DNA from: Bacteroidales bacterium | Lineage (GTDB): Bacteria > Bacteroidota > Bacteroidia > Bacteroidales > UBA3824 | NCBI GenBank assembly: GCA_016286055.1 | Contig: JAEERW010000020.1 | Coordinates: 1 to 44,703 of the forward strand | Direction of reading: 5' to 3' | Length of the DNA: 44,703 nucleotides | Part shown: positions 3,328-10,848 of the stretch, in pieces | Layout: the number at the start of each line of letters is the position of its first letter | How positions within the stretch are numbered: position 1 is the first letter of the stretch | Position numbers and translations under genes: made by a program | The notes under the pieces: model-generated | Databases searched by the model: none | Told to the model about the DNA's origin: nothing | The model's input: only the letters and a program-made list of their open reading frames with translations

Positions 3328-5610
3328 TCACGATTTTGACACAGTGTCTTCCGTAATCCATTTTTTTATTGTTCCTATTAAGTCTTTCGTATCTTTATCG
3401 TTTAATTGATATTGATTATTTGTGTTATAATATTTTGTAGCTCCAATTTCCTGATGTAAACATTCGATATCTTCTTTGTAATAGTCATTTAGAATTATTT
3501 GTTTTTCTATTGGAGTTAAGAAAACAGGATTTTTTTTCTTGAATTGATGTTCTTTTATACTCCATAAAACAAACAGTCTTTCAATAACTTCATCATCTTT
3601 CAAATTAATCTTGTCCGAATTGATAAATATTTTTTTCATTTCCTTATTCTCTATTATTTGTTTATATTCAAACATACAATGCGGGCTGCCAAAATACTTT
3701 TCATTGTACACAATTATTGTATATTTACTATTACCAATTTTTTGTTCAAAATCAGTAATCCTGTCCCCACCCTCAATATCTTCATCTGTTTTGCATCTAA
3801 TATTTTCTTTCTTAAATATATTCTTGATGTAATCAACAACGTCTGCGATATGCTCTCTTCCTTTTTTATCTTCATTATGAGCGTACGAAATATAAACTGG
3901 ATCTGAATTTTTATATTCTGTTTGTATTATTTTATCATCCGTGTCTTTTTTGTCATTTTTATATTTTATATATAAATCATAAATTCTATTTGATATTTTA
4001 ATAATTGTCGGTGCGAATCCTATTTTTTGTAAACTAACCCATAAATAGTTTATAATAGGTTCGATGTAATCATCGCTTTTTTCTAAAATTTTATCAATAT
4101 TTTTAAGATAGTCTGAGTAATTAAAGCTTTTAATATCTATTTGTTCGCGCAAGACATTTGCTATCAGTTTGTGGATATATAATAGGTCATTTTGACGGTT
4201 AATTACACCCTTCTCTATTAGGCTTGTAAAAGCGTTTGTGGTATTAGGTAAAAGAATACTAATTGTCTTAAAATCAGCCTTCTCGTCAGGAAAGGTCATA
4301 AAACAAGCGAGAAATATTATCTCTGGTTCTGAAAGCTTGTTAACATTGCAGAGGTCGATAAGATACGTGTAAATGTCTTGCTGTTCTTTGTCATCGATTA
4401 CTAAACCACCTAATATTTCTTCTGTTCGCTTGTTTTTGACCTTGTTCTCTTTTATATTGTTTAGTACTTCGTCTGCATCTTTTTCTTGGCTATTTGAAAA
4501 CGCAATTGCTGTTTGCTCAATCAAGAGTGGATGGTAATAAAGTTCATTTACAATTATGTCGAGTTGGTCATCCGAAAACTTAATACTCCCATCATAATTG
4601 TTTAAAAACAATTCTTTGGCTTCATCTCCCGTCATTCTGTCCATCTCAATAGACGCAAAACGGTTTTTATTTTTGACAATGGCTCGCGTTAGCACAAGTG
4701 TTTTCCAATTGTCAGAGGGGAGATATTTATATATTTGTGTGTTAATCTCTTGTTTTATTGTTTCATTGTTTGTGTTGACATCCAACACAAGTAGATTTTT
4801 ACCTTTAATGTTTGATAATTTGTTTTTAACTATTGCAAGTTTTACTGGTTTATTTTGATTTTGTATAAATCTTTCTTGTTCTTCCCCTTCATACAGTAAC
4901 TCTGCCATTTTTTCCAAAAAGGCGTCTTCAATTTTGCCATTAACTGTAACCCAAGCAATATTATTAAAATTCTTTTCCTTAATGAACTGATATGCCAAAG
5001 ACGTTTTCCCGCTGCCTCCAATACCACTGACTACCACACAATTATAGGTAGAAAATGACCTATGTAGTTTGTTTAACATATAGAAATTAGGGATAAGATT
5101 ATGTGGAATTACAATATTATTGATAATAGTAGGAGCTGAGGTAATTGACGGTGTAGTATTTACGTCAATCCCTACAATTTTTAATAAACGTTCTTGAAAT
5201 GTAGTATTTTCGTTTTTGGTTCGGTAACTTACAGCTTGAAATTTAGATAGTTCGGGAAATCTTGTTTCTCTAAAAGTCGGACGTATATTTATGATAGGTA
5301 TGATATGTATAGAATTATCCTCTTTTTGCCTTTGCAAAGCAATTTCAATTTCCTTGTAATACCAATCTGTTTTATTTTCTTGCGATTCACGATTGAAAGT
5401 ATCTTTGTTTATACAAATCAAAATATATTCTGACGAAAGCAATGCGTCGTGTATGGTTTCAAACCACTTGTTAGGTCTTTTGTTCAATTCCACAGCGTCA
5501 ACAAAAATCTTATCCTCATCGATATACTCGCTGAGGATATTATAAACTGTATCTTTGAACACCGCGTCGTCACGGCGGTAACTTATGAAGACTTTGTATT
5601 TGTAATCCAT
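3328..5610 (-). CDS. TIR-NB-ARC-TIR STAND protein
   Basis: This is a 760-residue candidate immune sensor. The start is the ATG at 5610 (MDYKYKVFISYRRDD), because the upstream ATG at 5634 lies inside the -7 box. Domains: N-terminal TIR (about 2-120) with DWYYKE, whose Glu87 aligns with the SARM1 catalytic Glu; NB-ARC-type NTPase with P-loop GIGGSGKT (196-203), Walker B LLVLD (273-277) and a downstream LVLTR sensor-like motif; a helical region (about 400-565); then a second TIR-like domain from about 571 (VYISYAHNEDKKG) with SPHCMFEYKQ placing a candidate Glu at 648. It is paralogous to the gene at 1-1143. NAD+ cleavage or signalling on infection is known for TIR-STAND families; the role here is inferred. 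No TPR, WD or LRR sensor repeats are evident. Confidence 0.85.
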   Translation of the reverse strand: MDYKYKVFISYRRDDAVFKDTVYNILSEYIDEDKIFVDAVELNKRPNKWFETIHDALLSSEYILICINKDTFNRESQENKTDWYYKEIEIALQRQKEDNSIHIIPIINIRPTFRETRFPELSKFQAVSYRTKNENTTFQERLLKIVGIDVNTTPSITSAPTIINNIVIPHNLIPNFYMLNKLHRSFSTYNCVVVSGIGGSGKTSLAYQFIKEKNFNNIAWVTVNGKIEDAFLEKMAELLYEGEEQERFIQNQNKPVKLAIVKNKLSNIKGKNLLVLDVNTNNETIKQEINTQIYKYLPSDNWKTLVLTRAIVKNKNRFASIEMDRMTGDEAKELFLNNYDGSIKFSDDQLDIIVNELYYHPLLIEQTAIAFSNSQEKDADEVLNNIKENKVKNKRTEEILGGLVIDDKEQQDIYTYLIDLCNVNKLSEPEIIFLACFMTFPDEKADFKTISILLPNTTNAFTSLIEKGVINRQNDLLYIHKLIANVLREQIDIKSFNYSDYLKNIDKILEKSDDYIEPIINYLWVSLQKIGFAPTIIKISNRIYDLYIKYKNDKKDTDDKIIQTEYKNSDPVYISYAHNEDKKGREHIADVVDYIKNIFKKENIRCKTDEDIEGGDRITDFEQKIGNSKYTIIVYNEKYFGSPHCMFEYKQIIENKEMKKIFINSDKINLKDDEVIERLFVLWSIKEHQFKKKNPVFLTPIEKQIILNDYYKEDIECLHQEIGATKYYNTNNQYQLNDKDTKDLIGTIKKWITEDTVSKS

Positions 5611-5631
5611 AGCAAAAAAAGTTTTGTGCAA

Positions 5632-5639
5632 CAAAGATA
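5632..5639 (-). promoter_or_regulatory. -7 box of the TIR-NB-ARC-TIR gene
   Basis: The minus strand reads TATCTTTG (TAnnTTTG). It overlaps the upstream in-frame ATG at 5634 and so argues for translation from 5610. Confidence 0.6.
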
Positions 5640-6718: not shown

Positions 6719-6994
6719 TTACTTGTCATCATAATGGCCGTACGATGTAAGAATAAGCACAATCACTTCATTATCATTAATTTCATACACAAGGCGATGC
6801 TTTTGAGTAATCCTACGGCTCCATTGTCCAGCTCTGTCACCCGACAACTGTTCAGGATGTCCCGTGCCGGTGCGAGGATGCTCTCTGAGTTCCTCGATGA
6901 GAGCCTGAGCCTTTGCAAACGACTTTGGCTCACTTTTGGCGAGTTTGGCAAGATCTACCATTGCCCTATCTTTTAACTCAACATCATATATCAT
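6719..6994 (-). CDS. yoeB: YoeB-family (RelE superfamily) mRNA-interferase toxin
   Basis: This 91-residue protein has the YoeB signature: a GTGHPEQLSGD segment, WSRRIT, HRLVYEI and a C-terminal SYGHY. These hold the Glu, Arg, His and Tyr used in catalysis in characterised YoeB. The family cleaves mRNA at the ribosomal A site during translation. The start overlaps the end of the antitoxin gene by 11 nt, so the pair is translationally coupled. The next gene downstream starts 2 nt after its stop. Confidence 0.92.
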   Translation of the reverse strand: MIYDVELKDRAMVDLAKLAKSEPKSFAKAQALIEELREHPRTGTGHPEQLSGDRAGQWSRRITQKHRLVYEINDNEVIVLILTSYGHYDDK

Positions 6995-7232
6995 AGCCGT
7001 GACGTTTTAGAAAATCTGTCAAATTCTCGTTGGGATTCATTCTGTGTGATTCGCCCTTTTTCGCCTCATCCACCCGCGCAAAAAATTCCTCTTTCGTCAT
7101 TAGCGTAGGGTCTTCTTGTTTAACCTTGACGAGTTTTTTAAGGTAATTAGCCAATTTGCTCATCAGCGGCTCGCTGTCGGCTATTGCTGCCATATCGCGC
7201 CATATCTGCGCGTTCAATTCCATTGCTGTCAT
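6984..7232 (-). CDS. Antitoxin partner of YoeB
   Basis: This small acidic protein (82 residues) is encoded directly upstream of the toxin and overlaps it by 11 nt. It begins MTAMELNAQIWRDM and contains LMTKEEFFARVDEAKKG, a form I recognise from Bacteroidota antitoxins paired with YoeB-like toxins. The C-terminal half (about 50-82) probably wraps the toxin, and the N-terminal half probably mediates dimerisation or DNA binding. It differs from enterobacterial YefM, so no symbol is given. Confidence 0.85.
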   Translation of the reverse strand: MTAMELNAQIWRDMAAIADSEPLMSKLANYLKKLVKVKQEDPTLMTKEEFFARVDEAKKGESHRMNPNENLTDFLKRHGYDI

Positions 7233-7256: not shown

Positions 7257-7264
7257 CAAATATA
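7257..7264 (-). promoter_or_regulatory. Promoter of the YoeB toxin-antitoxin module
   Basis: The minus strand reads TATATTTG, a perfect -7 box about 25 bp upstream of the antitoxin ATG. A TTG (plus-strand CAA at 7284-7286) lies 19 nt further upstream. Confidence 0.65.
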
Positions 7265-7291
7265 AATGATTTATTTCACAACCCAAAAGAA

Positions 7292-7732
7292 TTAATTATT
7301 GTTATTATTATTATTGTTGTTATTGTTATTATTGTTGTTGTTGTTTGAACTGCGCCCCGAAGAGTACGAACTGTCGTCGCGGCTTGAATACGATGAGTAG
7401 GATGCAACGGCGGCTCCGGCGGCAACTCCCGAAGAAGAAGACGGCGAGGAAATTTTGAATGTGGCATAATACCTGCGGTCAACAATTTGTACAGTTGAAT
7501 AAAACCTTGCAGCGCCTTCCGACATCTTCATATCAATAGTCTTTACGAGTTTTGCATTTACATAAAAGAGGATTTGATTCTCATTACCAACAACTTTTGC
7601 TCCGATGGTGTCGGAAAAGTCGTAGATAAAGTTGAGCGTACCGTTGTCCATATCAGGGTAATTAGCGGCAAAATCGTATGTGTTTTTGGCGCGGACAAGG
7701 TCGTTGTAGGTTTCTATCGGTTTGTTGATCAT
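7292..7732 (-). CDS. Small protein with Ser-rich segment and poly-Asn tail
   Basis: This 146-residue protein has no signal peptide and no recognised domain. Residues 1-95 look like a small folded alpha/beta domain. Residues 96-129 are low-complexity Ser/Ala/Tyr (SSYSSRDDSSYSSGR). Residues 130-146 are 17 consecutive asparagines, coded by AAC/AAT triplets ending at a TAA. The start overlaps the stop of the radical SAM gene in an ATGA, indicating tight translational coupling. The layout (ordered leader plus repetitive tail beside a SPASM radical SAM enzyme) resembles ribosomal peptide precursors such as the His-Xaa-Ser type, so it may be the substrate; that is inference. It could instead be an accessory protein. 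Confidence 0.75.
   Translation of the reverse strand: MINKPIETYNDLVRAKNTYDFAANYPDMDNGTLNFIYDFSDTIGAKVVGNENQILFYVNAKLVKTIDMKMSEGAARFYSTVQIVDRRYYATFKISSPSSSSGVAAGAAVASYSSYSSRDDSSYSSGRSSNNNNNNNNNNNNNNNNN
7295..7345 (-). repeat. AAC/AAT trinucleotide tract coding 17 Asn
   Basis: Seventeen consecutive Asn codons, mixed AAC and AAT, end the small protein gene. The tract is in frame, so loss or gain of triplets would change tail length without shifting frame. Confidence 0.9.
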
Positions 7733-9447
7733 ATTAAGCCCTCCGAATAATTAAACTCCACATTCTGAAACGGCAGGTTAACAGCCGCAATGTGGTAGTA
7801 TGCGTTGTTTTTTTGTTTAATATAATGGTAATCACGTAGATGCGTGGTGGTAAAGAATATATTGTTGGGATACTCTTTCGATAGGTATTTTTTGTAACTC
7901 TTTAAAAAATCGGTTATGTTGTAGACGTAAAAACCTTCGTCCTCCCAATCCTCCAAAACATATTTGTATACCTGCAATGTAGCCACGTGCTTTTGTTTCA
8001 GACGTTGTTCGTCGCCATACACGTGACAATCGCCGCTGAGAAGTTGTATAAACAGGGCGTTGTTTTGCGGATAGTCGCTTTCGGCTTCGAGCACCTCCTT
8101 GCGCACACGGATAAGCACGTCGAAACCTTCAAAAATCTGGATAATCTCGCGGCAGTTTTTGAGCAGTTGCGATTGCAATGGATAACGCTCGCCGCCCACT
8201 TCGAGCACAAACGAATCGGGGTCGTAGATATATTTTAGATGCGGATCCTTGTTGATAAGGTCTAAGAGCGAGTTTTCTTGATAAACCACCGGCTTAAAAT
8301 CCTTGGCAAGGTCGGGATGAACCTTCAAGAGATAGTTGAAAGCAGTGTCCGACGGGTTAGTGTCGGGCGAATAGTTGCGGTTTTTGTATAATTCTTGTTG
8401 CAAAAGGCAAGTGTAAGATTTGGCAGAATGGTAAACATTCTTTACAAACGGACAGCCTGTTTTGCACAAATATAGATACTGGCAGGCGGCACATTCGGGG
8501 CTGAATCCCACGTTGTTGTGCGCTGTAAGAATTTTTGAAGTGGCTGCGTTAAGTATTTCGTCAACAGTGTTTTGATAGATGTTACCGTAAAGTAACTCTT
8601 TATGACCTTGACCACGAACACAGGAATAAATGTCGCCGTTTTTCTCCAAAAGGAAGAATTTTTCGCCGCAGATGTCGCAGTTGGTGCAGTAGTCGGGACT
8701 AAACTCATTGAACCACGCACCGTTAACGCCCTTATCCAAATCCGTTCCGTCAAATTCGCGGTGCATACGGTTGAAAAACTCCACTTGATCGGTCTCGCTC
8801 AGCGGATGAAGAAGTCCGTTGGAATTGTAGTCAAACCCGATCATAAAGTTGAAATCGTTCATATCCAAGCAAGTGGACTTGTGGAGAAACTTTATGTCGT
8901 TGATAATGTTGTCTATCTTGGCGTAATGCTCGGCAAAGATGGTGGCAGAAACTTTTTTCTTGTTAGGAATATCGCGCAAAAGTTCAACATTTTGCAATAT
9001 CTTATCTAATGTAATTCTTCCACCTTTGGTAACACGGAAATGATTGTGCAGAGAGAGCGGCAGGTCGAGACTTCCGCTAATAGACACGTTGAACTTCTTG
9101 ATGGTGTCGATATGGCGGTCGATAGAATATAGGTTGGTTTTGATATGCGGCCGTCCCACACGGAATCCTGCCGTGGAAATAGTTTCGTAATTATCCTTGT
9201 AATAATCGTTGATAAACTTGATAACGTCGTGAAAATCCTCTTGCGACAGCGTGGACACCTCGCCACCGTGTAGCGAAATATTAAAAGGCATCACATCAGA
9301 CTCTCGGAGTTTGTTGATGGCAAACTGCAAGGTTTCCAACGGCTTATATTGCTGCATACGGTCTTTGGTATTGTCTTCTAAGTAGCAATACCTGCAAGCC
9401 ATATCGCAAGCCAATGTAGGGACGTATAGTAGATGGATGAACTTCAT
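7729..9447 (-). CDS. Radical SAM/SPASM domain enzyme
   Basis: This 572-residue protein has the radical SAM cluster motif CDMACRYC (Cys14, Cys18, Cys21) in the first strand, a GGE-type motif (LHGGEVS) about 45 residues later, and a central SPASM region. The SPASM cysteines include CTNCDICGEK, a CVRG, CAACQYLYLCKTGC and a final Cys in SYTCLL. These bind auxiliary Fe-S clusters in peptide-modifying and sulfatase-maturing enzymes. The last 190 residues match nothing I recognise and may be a partner-binding domain. It is followed with a 4-nt overlap by the poly-Asn protein and preceded by a BspA-LRR membrane gene. Peptide maturation is the likely role; the reaction is unknown. No Shine-Dalgarno is seen. 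Confidence 0.88.
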   Translation of the reverse strand: MKFIHLLYVPTLACDMACRYCYLEDNTKDRMQQYKPLETLQFAINKLRESDVMPFNISLHGGEVSTLSQEDFHDVIKFINDYYKDNYETISTAGFRVGRPHIKTNLYSIDRHIDTIKKFNVSISGSLDLPLSLHNHFRVTKGGRITLDKILQNVELLRDIPNKKKVSATIFAEHYAKIDNIINDIKFLHKSTCLDMNDFNFMIGFDYNSNGLLHPLSETDQVEFFNRMHREFDGTDLDKGVNGAWFNEFSPDYCTNCDICGEKFFLLEKNGDIYSCVRGQGHKELLYGNIYQNTVDEILNAATSKILTAHNNVGFSPECAACQYLYLCKTGCPFVKNVYHSAKSYTCLLQQELYKNRNYSPDTNPSDTAFNYLLKVHPDLAKDFKPVVYQENSLLDLINKDPHLKYIYDPDSFVLEVGGERYPLQSQLLKNCREIIQIFEGFDVLIRVRKEVLEAESDYPQNNALFIQLLSGDCHVYGDEQRLKQKHVATLQVYKYVLEDWEDEGFYVYNITDFLKSYKKYLSKEYPNNIFFTTTHLRDYHYIKQKNNAYYHIAAVNLPFQNVEFNYSEGLI

Positions 9448-9452
9448 TTTAA

Positions 9453-9494
9453 TTCATAATTCAAAATTCACAATTCATAATTCACAATTCAAAA
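9453..9494. repeat. Six tandem heptamers TTCANAA
   Basis: The 47-bp gap between the LRR and radical SAM genes is almost wholly filled by six 7-bp units of the form TTCANAA (N = T, A, C, T, C, A). They sit in the untranslated leader just before the radical SAM start codon. Confidence 0.85.
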
Positions 9495-10760
9495 TTAATA
9501 TTCTTCGATTTCGGTGGGTGAATTTTTGAACACCTTGTCCGCCACGGTGCATCCTTTTGGTATCTTGGCGGTTTTGAGATAAATACAATCGCGGAATGCC
9601 GAGCCTCGTATCTCCTCTACCGACGGAGGAATCACCACTTCGGTCAACCTTGTGTTGAAAAAAGACCGTGAACCTATGCGCCGCAACTGCGAACCTTCTT
9701 CAAATTTCAACTCCTCTAACGATGTATAACTAAACGCCTGTTCGCCGATGCGTTCCACTGTGGCGGGTATTGTGATAGTAGATATCTTAGTACCCGAAAA
9801 ACAATAGGCGTGTATCTCTGTGATATTTTTCGGAAGGGTGATTTCGTAGATATTTCCGCAATTGTTAAACGCATATCCGCCAATAGAATCCATCTGTTGC
9901 GGCAAATCGTTGATACGTAGTTGCCAACAATCATTAAAAGCATATCCGCCGATATAGGCCAATTCTGGCGGAAACTCCACACGTTCCAAACGGCTACATT
10001 CGTTAAAGGCGTATGCTCCGAGCGATTTTAGGCTTGTAGGCAGGTTGATTGTTTGTAAATCTTCGCACCCATCGAAAGCGTGACCACGGATAATGGTGAT
10101 AGTGTTGGGCAGGGTAACTTTCTCCAACGCAGTGCGCCTGAATACATCGCCACGTATACCGGTAACAGGCTTTCCGTCAACAGTTTCGGGAATCACAAGT
10201 TCTTTGTTGTTGATAAGTCCCTCGGTGTAGAAACGCACGTGCACGCCATCGCCGGTATCCTCGTAAAAAACGTGCGGATTGAGAAACATCGCCACGGGAA
10301 TAATCAACGTAAAGGCAATCATAATAATACGCCGAAGCCATTTTTTGTCGGTGCACTTGTCGAATAGTTGCGGGGCTATTACATCAGAGAACTTTTCACG
10401 CGGACGTCGCTTTATCTCCATTTTGAGAAAATCCACTGTATCAGACTTTTGAAACTTACGCCAAATCAATAGGTTGATAGCAATAAGCACCACTGCTACC
10501 CAATCAGCATAGTGAAAAGTGCGGAAAAGCACAATAATAATAAGGTTGATGGGTGCCGAGATAAAAGTGGCGGTCATCTTCTTTTTCTCAAACTGCGCCA
10601 GGGTGTGCTTCGATGTGTCGAAACCGATTTTCTCGCACTCGCGTTGGATAAGTCCATTAAGAATTGCGTCCTCCGACTTCAAAAACAGCGGGTCGATAAC
10701 CTGCTGAGGCTGAGTTTTGGGTTGATCTTGCGGTATGGGGGGTGGTGTGTTATCTGCCAT
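9495..10760 (-). CDS. Membrane protein with BspA-type leucine-rich repeats
   Basis: This 421-residue protein starts with a Pro/Gln-rich tail (MADNTPPPIPQDQP), followed by hydrophobic segments at about 65-80, 86-102 and 143-160. From about residue 186 to the end come BspA/TpLRR-type repeats (units such as LPNTITIIRGHAFDGC and IGGYAFNDC, about 23 residues each). There is no cleavable signal peptide, so it is probably anchored in the inner membrane by the central helices. It is the first gene of a minus-strand unit with the radical SAM enzyme and the poly-Asn protein. BspA repeats mediate protein binding or adhesion in known members; its role here is unknown. Confidence 0.85.
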   Translation of the reverse strand: MADNTPPPIPQDQPKTQPQQVIDPLFLKSEDAILNGLIQRECEKIGFDTSKHTLAQFEKKKMTATFISAPINLIIIVLFRTFHYADWVAVVLIAINLLIWRKFQKSDTVDFLKMEIKRRPREKFSDVIAPQLFDKCTDKKWLRRIIMIAFTLIIPVAMFLNPHVFYEDTGDGVHVRFYTEGLINNKELVIPETVDGKPVTGIRGDVFRRTALEKVTLPNTITIIRGHAFDGCEDLQTINLPTSLKSLGAYAFNECSRLERVEFPPELAYIGGYAFNDCWQLRINDLPQQMDSIGGYAFNNCGNIYEITLPKNITEIHAYCFSGTKISTITIPATVERIGEQAFSYTSLEELKFEEGSQLRRIGSRSFFNTRLTEVVIPPSVEEIRGSAFRDCIYLKTAKIPKGCTVADKVFKNSPTEIEEY

Positions 10761-10791: not shown

Positions 10792-10799
10792 CAAATATA
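10792..10799 (-). promoter_or_regulatory. Promoter of the LRR-radical SAM unit
   Basis: The minus strand reads TATATTTG (-7), with a TTTG at 10820-10823 (minus strand) 20 nt upstream. It lies about 35 bp before the LRR start codon. Confidence 0.65.
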
Positions 10800-10848
10800 T
10801 GCATTTTTTTTGATAAAGACAAAATGATTTTTTAAAGAATGTTCATTG

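Follow-up and report, generated by a model that had tools for sequence, protein, structure and literature searches.

A radical SAM/SPASM enzyme paired with an asparagine-tailed protein in rumen Bacteroidales, and its relatives beside the tail fibres of Campylobacter phages: a candidate system for protein-tail modification

We analysed a 44,703-nucleotide stretch of DNA from a Bacteroidales bacterium (GenBank assembly GCA_016286055.1, contig JAEERW010000020.1, positions 1 to 44,703; hereafter the window) for a locus that encodes a radical SAM/SPASM enzyme and a small protein ending in a run of asparagines. The order on the minus strand is a leucine-rich repeat (LRR) protein gene, the enzyme gene and the small protein gene, and the last two share four nucleotides, ATGA (Table 1). 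These three open reading frames and their overlap had been described in an earlier reading made from the letters alone (the sequence-only reading) and were confirmed. That reading also saw in the small protein a small ordered domain, a Ser/Tyr stretch and 17 Asn, which agrees with the AlphaFold2 fold and with a count of exactly 17. The C-terminal extension of the enzyme, put there at 190 residues, is longer, at about 225.

Table 1. Features of the locus, in positions of the window
Feature	Position	Strand	Remarks
LRR gene, BspA-type LRR membrane protein, 421 aa	9495-10760	minus	Pfam LRR_5, E 8.8e-57
Radical SAM/SPASM enzyme gene, 572 aa	7729-9447	minus	Radical_SAM and SPASM matches; phrog_1802
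SPASM region, residues 254-347	8407-8688	minus	C254, C260, C276, C319, C322, C328, C332, C347
C-terminal extension, residues 348-572 (about 225)	7732-8406	minus	after SPASM
Small tailed protein gene, 146 aa, predicted substrate	7292-7732	minus	4-nt overlap with enzyme gene
Folded N-domain, residues 1-95	7448-7732	minus	two helices, then five strands with one more helix
Low-complexity tail, residues 96-146	7295-7447	minus	Tyr112, Tyr115 and Tyr123 invariant in 10 aligned sequences
C-terminal run of 17 Asn	7295-7345	minus	
Promoter-like site TTTG-N20-TAnnTTTG before LRR gene	10792-10823	minus	Bacteroidetes-type pattern, consensus presumed

The relatives within the genus are Bacteroidales metagenome-assembled genomes, with goat, yak, sheep or deer samples named in 10 of 13 record titles. 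Among 18 genomes of the genus, 14 contain both the full enzyme and the small protein and four contain neither (completeness 61%, 72%, 97% and 94%); the small partner accompanies the extended enzyme in all 14 genomes with a full enzyme, a check that the sequence-only reading had asked for. The four-nucleotide overlap was present in 11 of the 13 loci examined, the other two having gaps of 20 and 4 nucleotides. The gene upstream is variable: of the 13 loci in which it could be assessed, nine have an LRR gene there and four a nucleotidyltransferase gene (the L043 contig, which starts at the enzyme, is not among them). Since the upstream gene varies and the pair does not, the enzyme and the small protein are the constant unit, a fixed pair in the genus. 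The four genomes with a nucleotidyltransferase at the locus have an LRR homologue (50 to 55% identity) on another contig, and LRR homologues were found in 15 of the 18 genomes, including one, G001, without the pair. The LRR protein was considered as a core partner and ruled out by its replacement in 4/13 loci and by G001. We found no third gene common to all loci, and the nucleotidyltransferase locus did not show a clean empty site.

Inspection of the loci by eye, with Pfam searches on part of the neighbours, revealed no recognisable peptide exporter or leader peptidase beside the pair, and none of the neighbours scanned with Pfam was a sulfatase. An M16 peptidase gene adjoins the pair in L048, and genes for HlyD-like and AcrB-like proteins lie 6 to 10 kb from it in the window, on the other strand; neither was seen beside the pair in other loci.

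The small protein matched no family in Pfam or NCBIfam. AlphaFold2 modelled residues 1 to 90 of its N-terminal domain with block means of 93 to 98, and a fold search with this domain against PDB and BFVD gave nothing at E ≤ 0.001. The tail was modelled with low confidence, as expected of a disordered stretch. The Asn run mixes both Asn codons (8 AAC and 9 AAT), which makes selection at the protein level more likely than simple repetition of the DNA. Orthologous tails vary by insertion and deletion and keep their make-up, namely three Tyr, Ser-rich surroundings, a Gly/Ser stretch and then the Asn run. All nine tails whose stop codon lies within the contig close with this run (some have a last Gly after it or single interruptions), and in these nine complete rumen tails the last Tyr stands 5 to 9 residues ahead of it; in the remaining five genomes the tail is cut by a contig end. 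Among 105 crude gene calls from the window and five loci, the six 40-residue stretches richest in Ser, Tyr, Gly and Asn were those of the six small-protein orthologues.

The small gene is also a place where assemblies break. Contigs terminate inside it in five of 14 genomes, and in a sixth, G014, it is split between two contigs with both parts present (G003, G004, G012, G014, G016 and G017 in all). Three of these contig ends fall within the Asn run itself, and strain differences in the tail are perhaps the cause of the breaks.

The enzyme passed the cut-offs of Pfam Radical_SAM (32.9 bits, cut-off 29.5) and TIGR04085 SPASM (46 bits, cut-off 27) and came slightly short of Pfam SPASM (20 against 21.5). 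Its CxxxCxxC motif and SPASM cysteines make it a member of the radical SAM/SPASM superfamily. The extension that follows has no homology to the small protein (hhalign probability 0.5%) and contains two conserved blocks, with 34 of 42 columns invariant at residues 457-498 and 31 of 40 at 527-566 in 14 rumen sequences. A hidden Markov model (HMM) of the extension, run against 393 genomes from the order and 395 from the phylum, gave convincing matches in the genus only, together with three unconvincing ones (E 0.02 to 0.08) in the 395-genome search. An HMM of the full enzyme matched in 52 of the 393 order genomes, and outside the genus these matches covered only parts of the radical SAM/SPASM core.

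These HMM searches and a pattern scan of contigs had suggested a family restricted to the genus, a view that was overturned by tblastn of plasmid and phage records; the earlier searches had covered a single phylum or had used two peptide patterns absent from the phage enzymes. Among annotated records, Campylobacter phage CAM-P21 encodes a full-length homologue with 33.5% identity across 99% (E 5e-89), and another is found in a C. coli plasmid record carrying the same kind of phage region. The extension part alone has 33.1% identity to a Campylobacter coli prophage enzyme, and its conserved blocks agree between the rumen and phage lineages. Residues 9-566 of the window enzyme matched positions 49-550 of the 556 in the phrog_1802 profile (E 8.3e-34), which makes it a member of that family; PHROGs files phrog_1802 under 'other', as 'radical SAM domain-containing protein'.

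The CxxxCxxC motif and the eight SPASM cysteines, in the pattern of anaerobic sulfatase-maturing enzymes (anSMEs), do not vary among the 11 rumen and phage enzymes aligned. These ligands speak for a working SPASM enzyme that carries two auxiliary clusters, the number found in anSMEs. The residue after C276 is Val in all six rumen enzymes and His in all five phage enzymes. An extra cysteine of the window enzyme, Cys257, is Ser in two phage enzymes (L162 and L164), which retain the other cluster cysteines. Among the best 25 of 44 profile matches, none of the NCBIfam maturases of ribosomally synthesized and post-translationally modified peptides (RiPPs), including DynA, GrrM, XyeB, HxsB, FxsB and PapB, reached its cut-off with the enzyme. 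The best score was that of DynA, 90.7 against a cut-off of 450; the enzyme lies outside these families, in support of the possible new system of the sequence-only reading. A place among the anaerobic sulfatase maturases, which the same reading had named as fatal to its proposal, was not found either (TIGR03942, 79.7 bits against 349.45). The nearest NCBIfam profiles are those of peptide- and protein-modifying SPASM enzymes, cyclophane formers among them. A PDB sequence search gave no match at E ≤ 0.001, and the predicted structure is of low confidence (mean pLDDT, the predicted local distance difference test, 56.5), which makes a fold search on it a hint at most.

The Mu-like Campylobacter phages that encode the homologue share a gene order of tail fibre, a 211-residue protein, the radical SAM enzyme and then, in most records, a DUF1353 gene. 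The fibre of one of these loci, L153, has a tail-collar N-terminal domain (PF12571). According to the portions consulted of two campycin studies (PMC11464564, PMC7882524), the C-terminal part of the CJIE1 fibre pulls down the C. jejuni major outer membrane protein, the C-terminal knob is the predicted binding region, and a DUF4376 chaperone gene comes after the fibre gene; 'radical SAM' is absent from the main text of both. In the same portions, the fibres studied are of 343 and 359 residues, the lengths of two enzyme-free fibre classes found here, and the chaperone named there, WP_002878909.1, is the one in the enzyme-free record L211. The gene behind the fibre is annotated as DUF4376 in four of eight enzyme-free records opened, a different protein in the same slot. 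The 211-residue protein of L153 (6325-6960) had no match to the PHROGs that two DUF4376 chaperones from enzyme-free phages hit, and at its C-terminal end it is similar to parts of Pseudomonas, Caulobacter and Curvibacter phages. Radical SAM proteins have been counted before in Campylobacter phages: two virulent ones have 11 and 12, for which the section consulted of the source guesses at a metabolic role (PMC2853527).

The C-termini of the fibres were compared between phages with and without the enzyme. Fibres on the enzyme side were picked by position, two genes ahead of the enzyme, in 14 enzyme-bearing phage records (the L156 fibre being cut at its N-terminal end). Enzyme-free fibres were collected from IMG/VR, GenBank phages and PLSDB by homology to the L153 fibre in its N-terminal part; L176 and L178, in which the contig ends within the fibre, were excluded. 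Fibre-like matches were present in 261 phage and 109 plasmid records; eight further regions from this source were opened and seven counted, L215 being excluded for want of an annotated fibre coding sequence. Absence of the enzyme in these seven was taken from annotation and from searches in which coverage of the enzyme reached 80% in only two records, one of a phage and one of a plasmid. Further viral scans returned known contigs and two new ones, L171 and L172. An end was scored as an Asn run if two or more Asn were followed by at most one residue.

By this measure, all 14 fibres beside the enzyme end in an Asn run and none of the 26 homologous fibres without it does. A single IMG/VR search by the fibre N-terminus (28 loci, two of them cut) gave 7/7 with the enzyme and 0/19 without. 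When the last 110 residues were grouped by similarity, the Asn end occurred in all four enzyme groups and in none of the nine enzyme-free groups, an all-or-none outcome with a probability of 1/715 if the groups are taken as independent. The four enzyme knob groups have no mutual similarity at the threshold used, yet they have the same kind of end (SGSTNNNNY, SGATNNNNY, LGSSNNNNY, STGNNF, SSGNNF, SMGNNF, SMGNNS and YSCNNNNN). As in the rumen tails, a Tyr precedes the run, by 2 to 9 residues, in all 14 enzyme-side fibres. This pattern is what would be expected if the enzyme reads and changes the C-terminus. The phages have the enzyme without the small partner, a situation that had been named as a refutation of the sequence-only proposal, but the Asn-run end is there on the tail fibre, so that the link between enzyme and tail is strengthened.

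The observed gene pairing, the conserved motif, the conserved cluster ligands and the association of the Asn end with the enzyme in two distant lineages lead us to a reading in which the tail is the putative substrate. The explanation that we favour, and judge somewhat more probable than all others together, is that the enzyme has as its target the C-terminal Tyr/Ser–Asn tail of the neighbouring protein, which it modifies; in the phages this tail would be the tip of the receptor-binding fibre. Enzyme and tailed protein would form an enzyme-substrate pair, in which the enzyme docks on its partner, perhaps through its own C-terminal extension, and acts on the disordered C-terminus. The target pattern would be a Tyr, 2 to 9 residues that are often Ser/Thr/Gly-rich, and then 2 to 17 Asn that reach the C-terminus or stop one residue short of it. 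In Campylobacter Mu-like phages the same enzyme family would act on the matching C-terminus of the tail fibre. Asn may be the residue that is changed, either by itself or through linkage to the upstream Tyr, of the kind known from Aro-Xaa-Asn cyclophanes; a bond from Tyr to the Asn beta-carbon and a change of Asn only (epimerisation or desaturation) would both fit. Because no exporter or leader peptidase was recognised beside the pair, and the HlyD-like, AcrB-like and M16 genes do not recur, the product probably stays on the protein, where it may serve binding or assembly. A cleaved peptide product is not supported. Of the sequence-only proposal, therefore, the enzyme-tail pair stands, being fixed in the genus (14/14) and matched by the Asn end beside the enzyme in a second lineage. 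The classical leader-plus-core peptide is not supported, given the confident fold of the N-domain, the lack of a recognised exporter or leader peptidase beside the pair, and the phage tail on a structural protein. A broader statement we put forward more tentatively, at a little under even chances: that the enzyme family matures the extreme C-terminus of phage fibres at a Tyr-spacer-Asn-run, and that the same module exists phage-free as the two-gene system of rumen Bacteroidales.

Several observations weigh against our favoured explanation. Four more tracts of Asn codons occur in the window genome, three within long open frames of unrelated-looking proteins, and poly-Asn can therefore arise without this enzyme. 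On the phage side, the enzyme genes of L163 and L172 (2/14) look broken and their fibres keep the Asn end. Most of the records are near relatives and hence not independent, and the sets of 14 and 26 were gathered differently, so that only the comparison of 7 with 19 is free of this bias. Absence of the enzyme was judged within the available stretch, which extends at least 2.5 kb downstream in 15 of the 19 IMG/VR loci; in the other four, a DUF1353 gene lies about 0.5 kb behind the fibre. An aromatic residue precedes the run in rumen tails and often also follows it in phage tails, and no single crosslink geometry therefore fits all. Finally, the phage association could reflect a co-inherited cassette of fibre tip, 211-residue protein and enzyme.

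Among the alternatives, the tailed protein could be an adaptor or scaffold whose Ser/Tyr/Asn tail recruits the enzyme to a true target elsewhere. The confident fold of the N-domain would suit such a role, and so would the composition of the tail, which resembles low-complexity self-assembling sequences. The lack of a recognised exporter or leader peptidase beside the pair, and the poly-Asn and poly-Asp tracts that other proteins of the genome bear without an adjoining enzyme, point the same way. However, no third gene is common to all loci, and in the phages the Asn-run end tracks the presence of the enzyme on unrelated fibre knobs, as a target motif would; we regard the adaptor as unlikely.

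The cassette just mentioned, in which fibre tip, 211-residue protein and enzyme are swapped together while the enzyme has an unrelated role and the rumen poly-Asn is a habit of the organism, we hold to be slightly less likely again. It draws on the DUF4376 gene in the same slot in half of the enzyme-free records opened, on the two probably broken enzyme genes beside fibres that retain the Asn end, and on homopolymer tracts elsewhere in the window genome. It is harder to reconcile with the same kind of end in four knob clusters that are dissimilar at the threshold used, and with its recurrence on the chromosome of another phylum, where the enzyme is paired with a different protein. Oxidation of tail Ser to formylglycine by an enzyme of the anSME type is very improbable, for although TIGR03942 is among the best profiles, the ligand spacing is like that of anSMEcpe and the rumen tail is Ser-rich, the score is far under the cut-off, Val or His takes the place of the Asp found behind the third SPASM Cys of anSMEcpe (Asp277, which we take to be catalytic), no sulfatase was seen in the neighbours scanned, and some phage tails are Ser-poor, yet all 14 have Asn.

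Homopolymer tracts were looked at more widely in this genome. Other long frames (L112, L114 and L116, which by eye we take to resemble IF-2, a secreted CAP-like protein and a caspase-like protein) have poly-Asn linkers or poly-Asp/Tyr or poly-His tails, and such tracts are therefore a habit of this organism.

Transcription of the locus was considered with a promoter pattern whose consensus we take to be of the Bacteroidetes type. There are six matches in the window; shuffling it 100 times gave 1.91 on average, and two of the shuffles reached six. One match precedes the LRR gene (Table 1), another, at 7257-7287, separates the small gene from a YoeB-like toxin-antitoxin pair, and none was found in the gap between the LRR and enzyme genes. 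From the first two we conclude that LRR, enzyme and small protein genes are probably one transcription unit. The LRR gene is thus probably co-transcribed with the pair in the window, as the earlier proposal of one promoter had it, but, replaced in 4/13 loci, it is no core member. The gap itself (9448-9494) consists of AT-rich direct repeats, and L043 is tandem-repeat-like at the same place. The YoeB-like toxin gene and its probable antitoxin gene (6719-7232), with the site at 7257-7287 as their own, separate the small gene from a gene for a zinc-ribbon membrane protein, which lies directly 3' of the small gene in L042 and L045. The window also contains two related TIR-type genes, at 1-1230 (judged from its N-terminal sequence only) and at 3328-5634; the latter has TIR, NB-ARC and a second TIR match, and PADLOC gave no family for it at E ≤ 0.001.

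Radical SAM maturases have yielded much new peptide chemistry. If the broader statement made above is right, protein tips would be matured in a new way and phage-host recognition would have a new layer. If its phage half is right, some fibres carry an enzymatic modification that is missed in recombinant fibres made without the enzyme; in the portion of the campycin work consulted, it is the C-terminal part of the CJIE1-like prophage fibre that binds the host receptor (PMC11464564). The literature searched, consisting in part of titles and the starts of abstracts, held no description that we recognised of a C-terminal Asn run as a radical SAM target or of such a system, and no such tail appears in the examined parts of a survey of Bacteroidales RiPP clusters (PMC10352776). 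We rate the system as putative radical SAM protein modification with a new type of target, common to phage fibres and a bacterial two-gene locus.

Compared with known systems, anSMEcpe (4k36) has the same order of cluster cysteines at nearly the same spacing, but differs by its Asp after the third SPASM Cys, where Val or His stands here, by the additional 225-residue extension of our enzyme, and by the sulfatase context, of which the neighbours scanned show nothing. The triceptide maturases GrrM/OscB, AmcB, YhhB and FxsB are likewise SPASM enzymes beside a protein with a repetitive C-terminus. The present enzyme scores roughly 6 to 11 times under their cut-offs, its Tyr-to-Asn spacing is 2 to 9, and we know of no extension of this kind among them. 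TvgA/TvgB, which form poly-cyclopropylglycine, resemble the pair as proposed here in that a radical SAM enzyme repeatedly modifies one residue type in a repetitive C-terminus; they differ in their TVGG repeats, Val target, and oxidase and peptidase/transporter genes, none of which was recognised here. The same source, in the part consulted, lists Aro-Xaa-Asn among the known targets of three-residue cyclophane maturases (PMC9062424 for both). Also close is phrog_1802 of the CJIE1-like phages, which is homologous over nearly its full length, has the same extension and adjoins a protein with an Asn-run end, but lies in a tail-fibre region with a 211-residue protein and has as its partner a tail fibre instead of the 146-residue protein.

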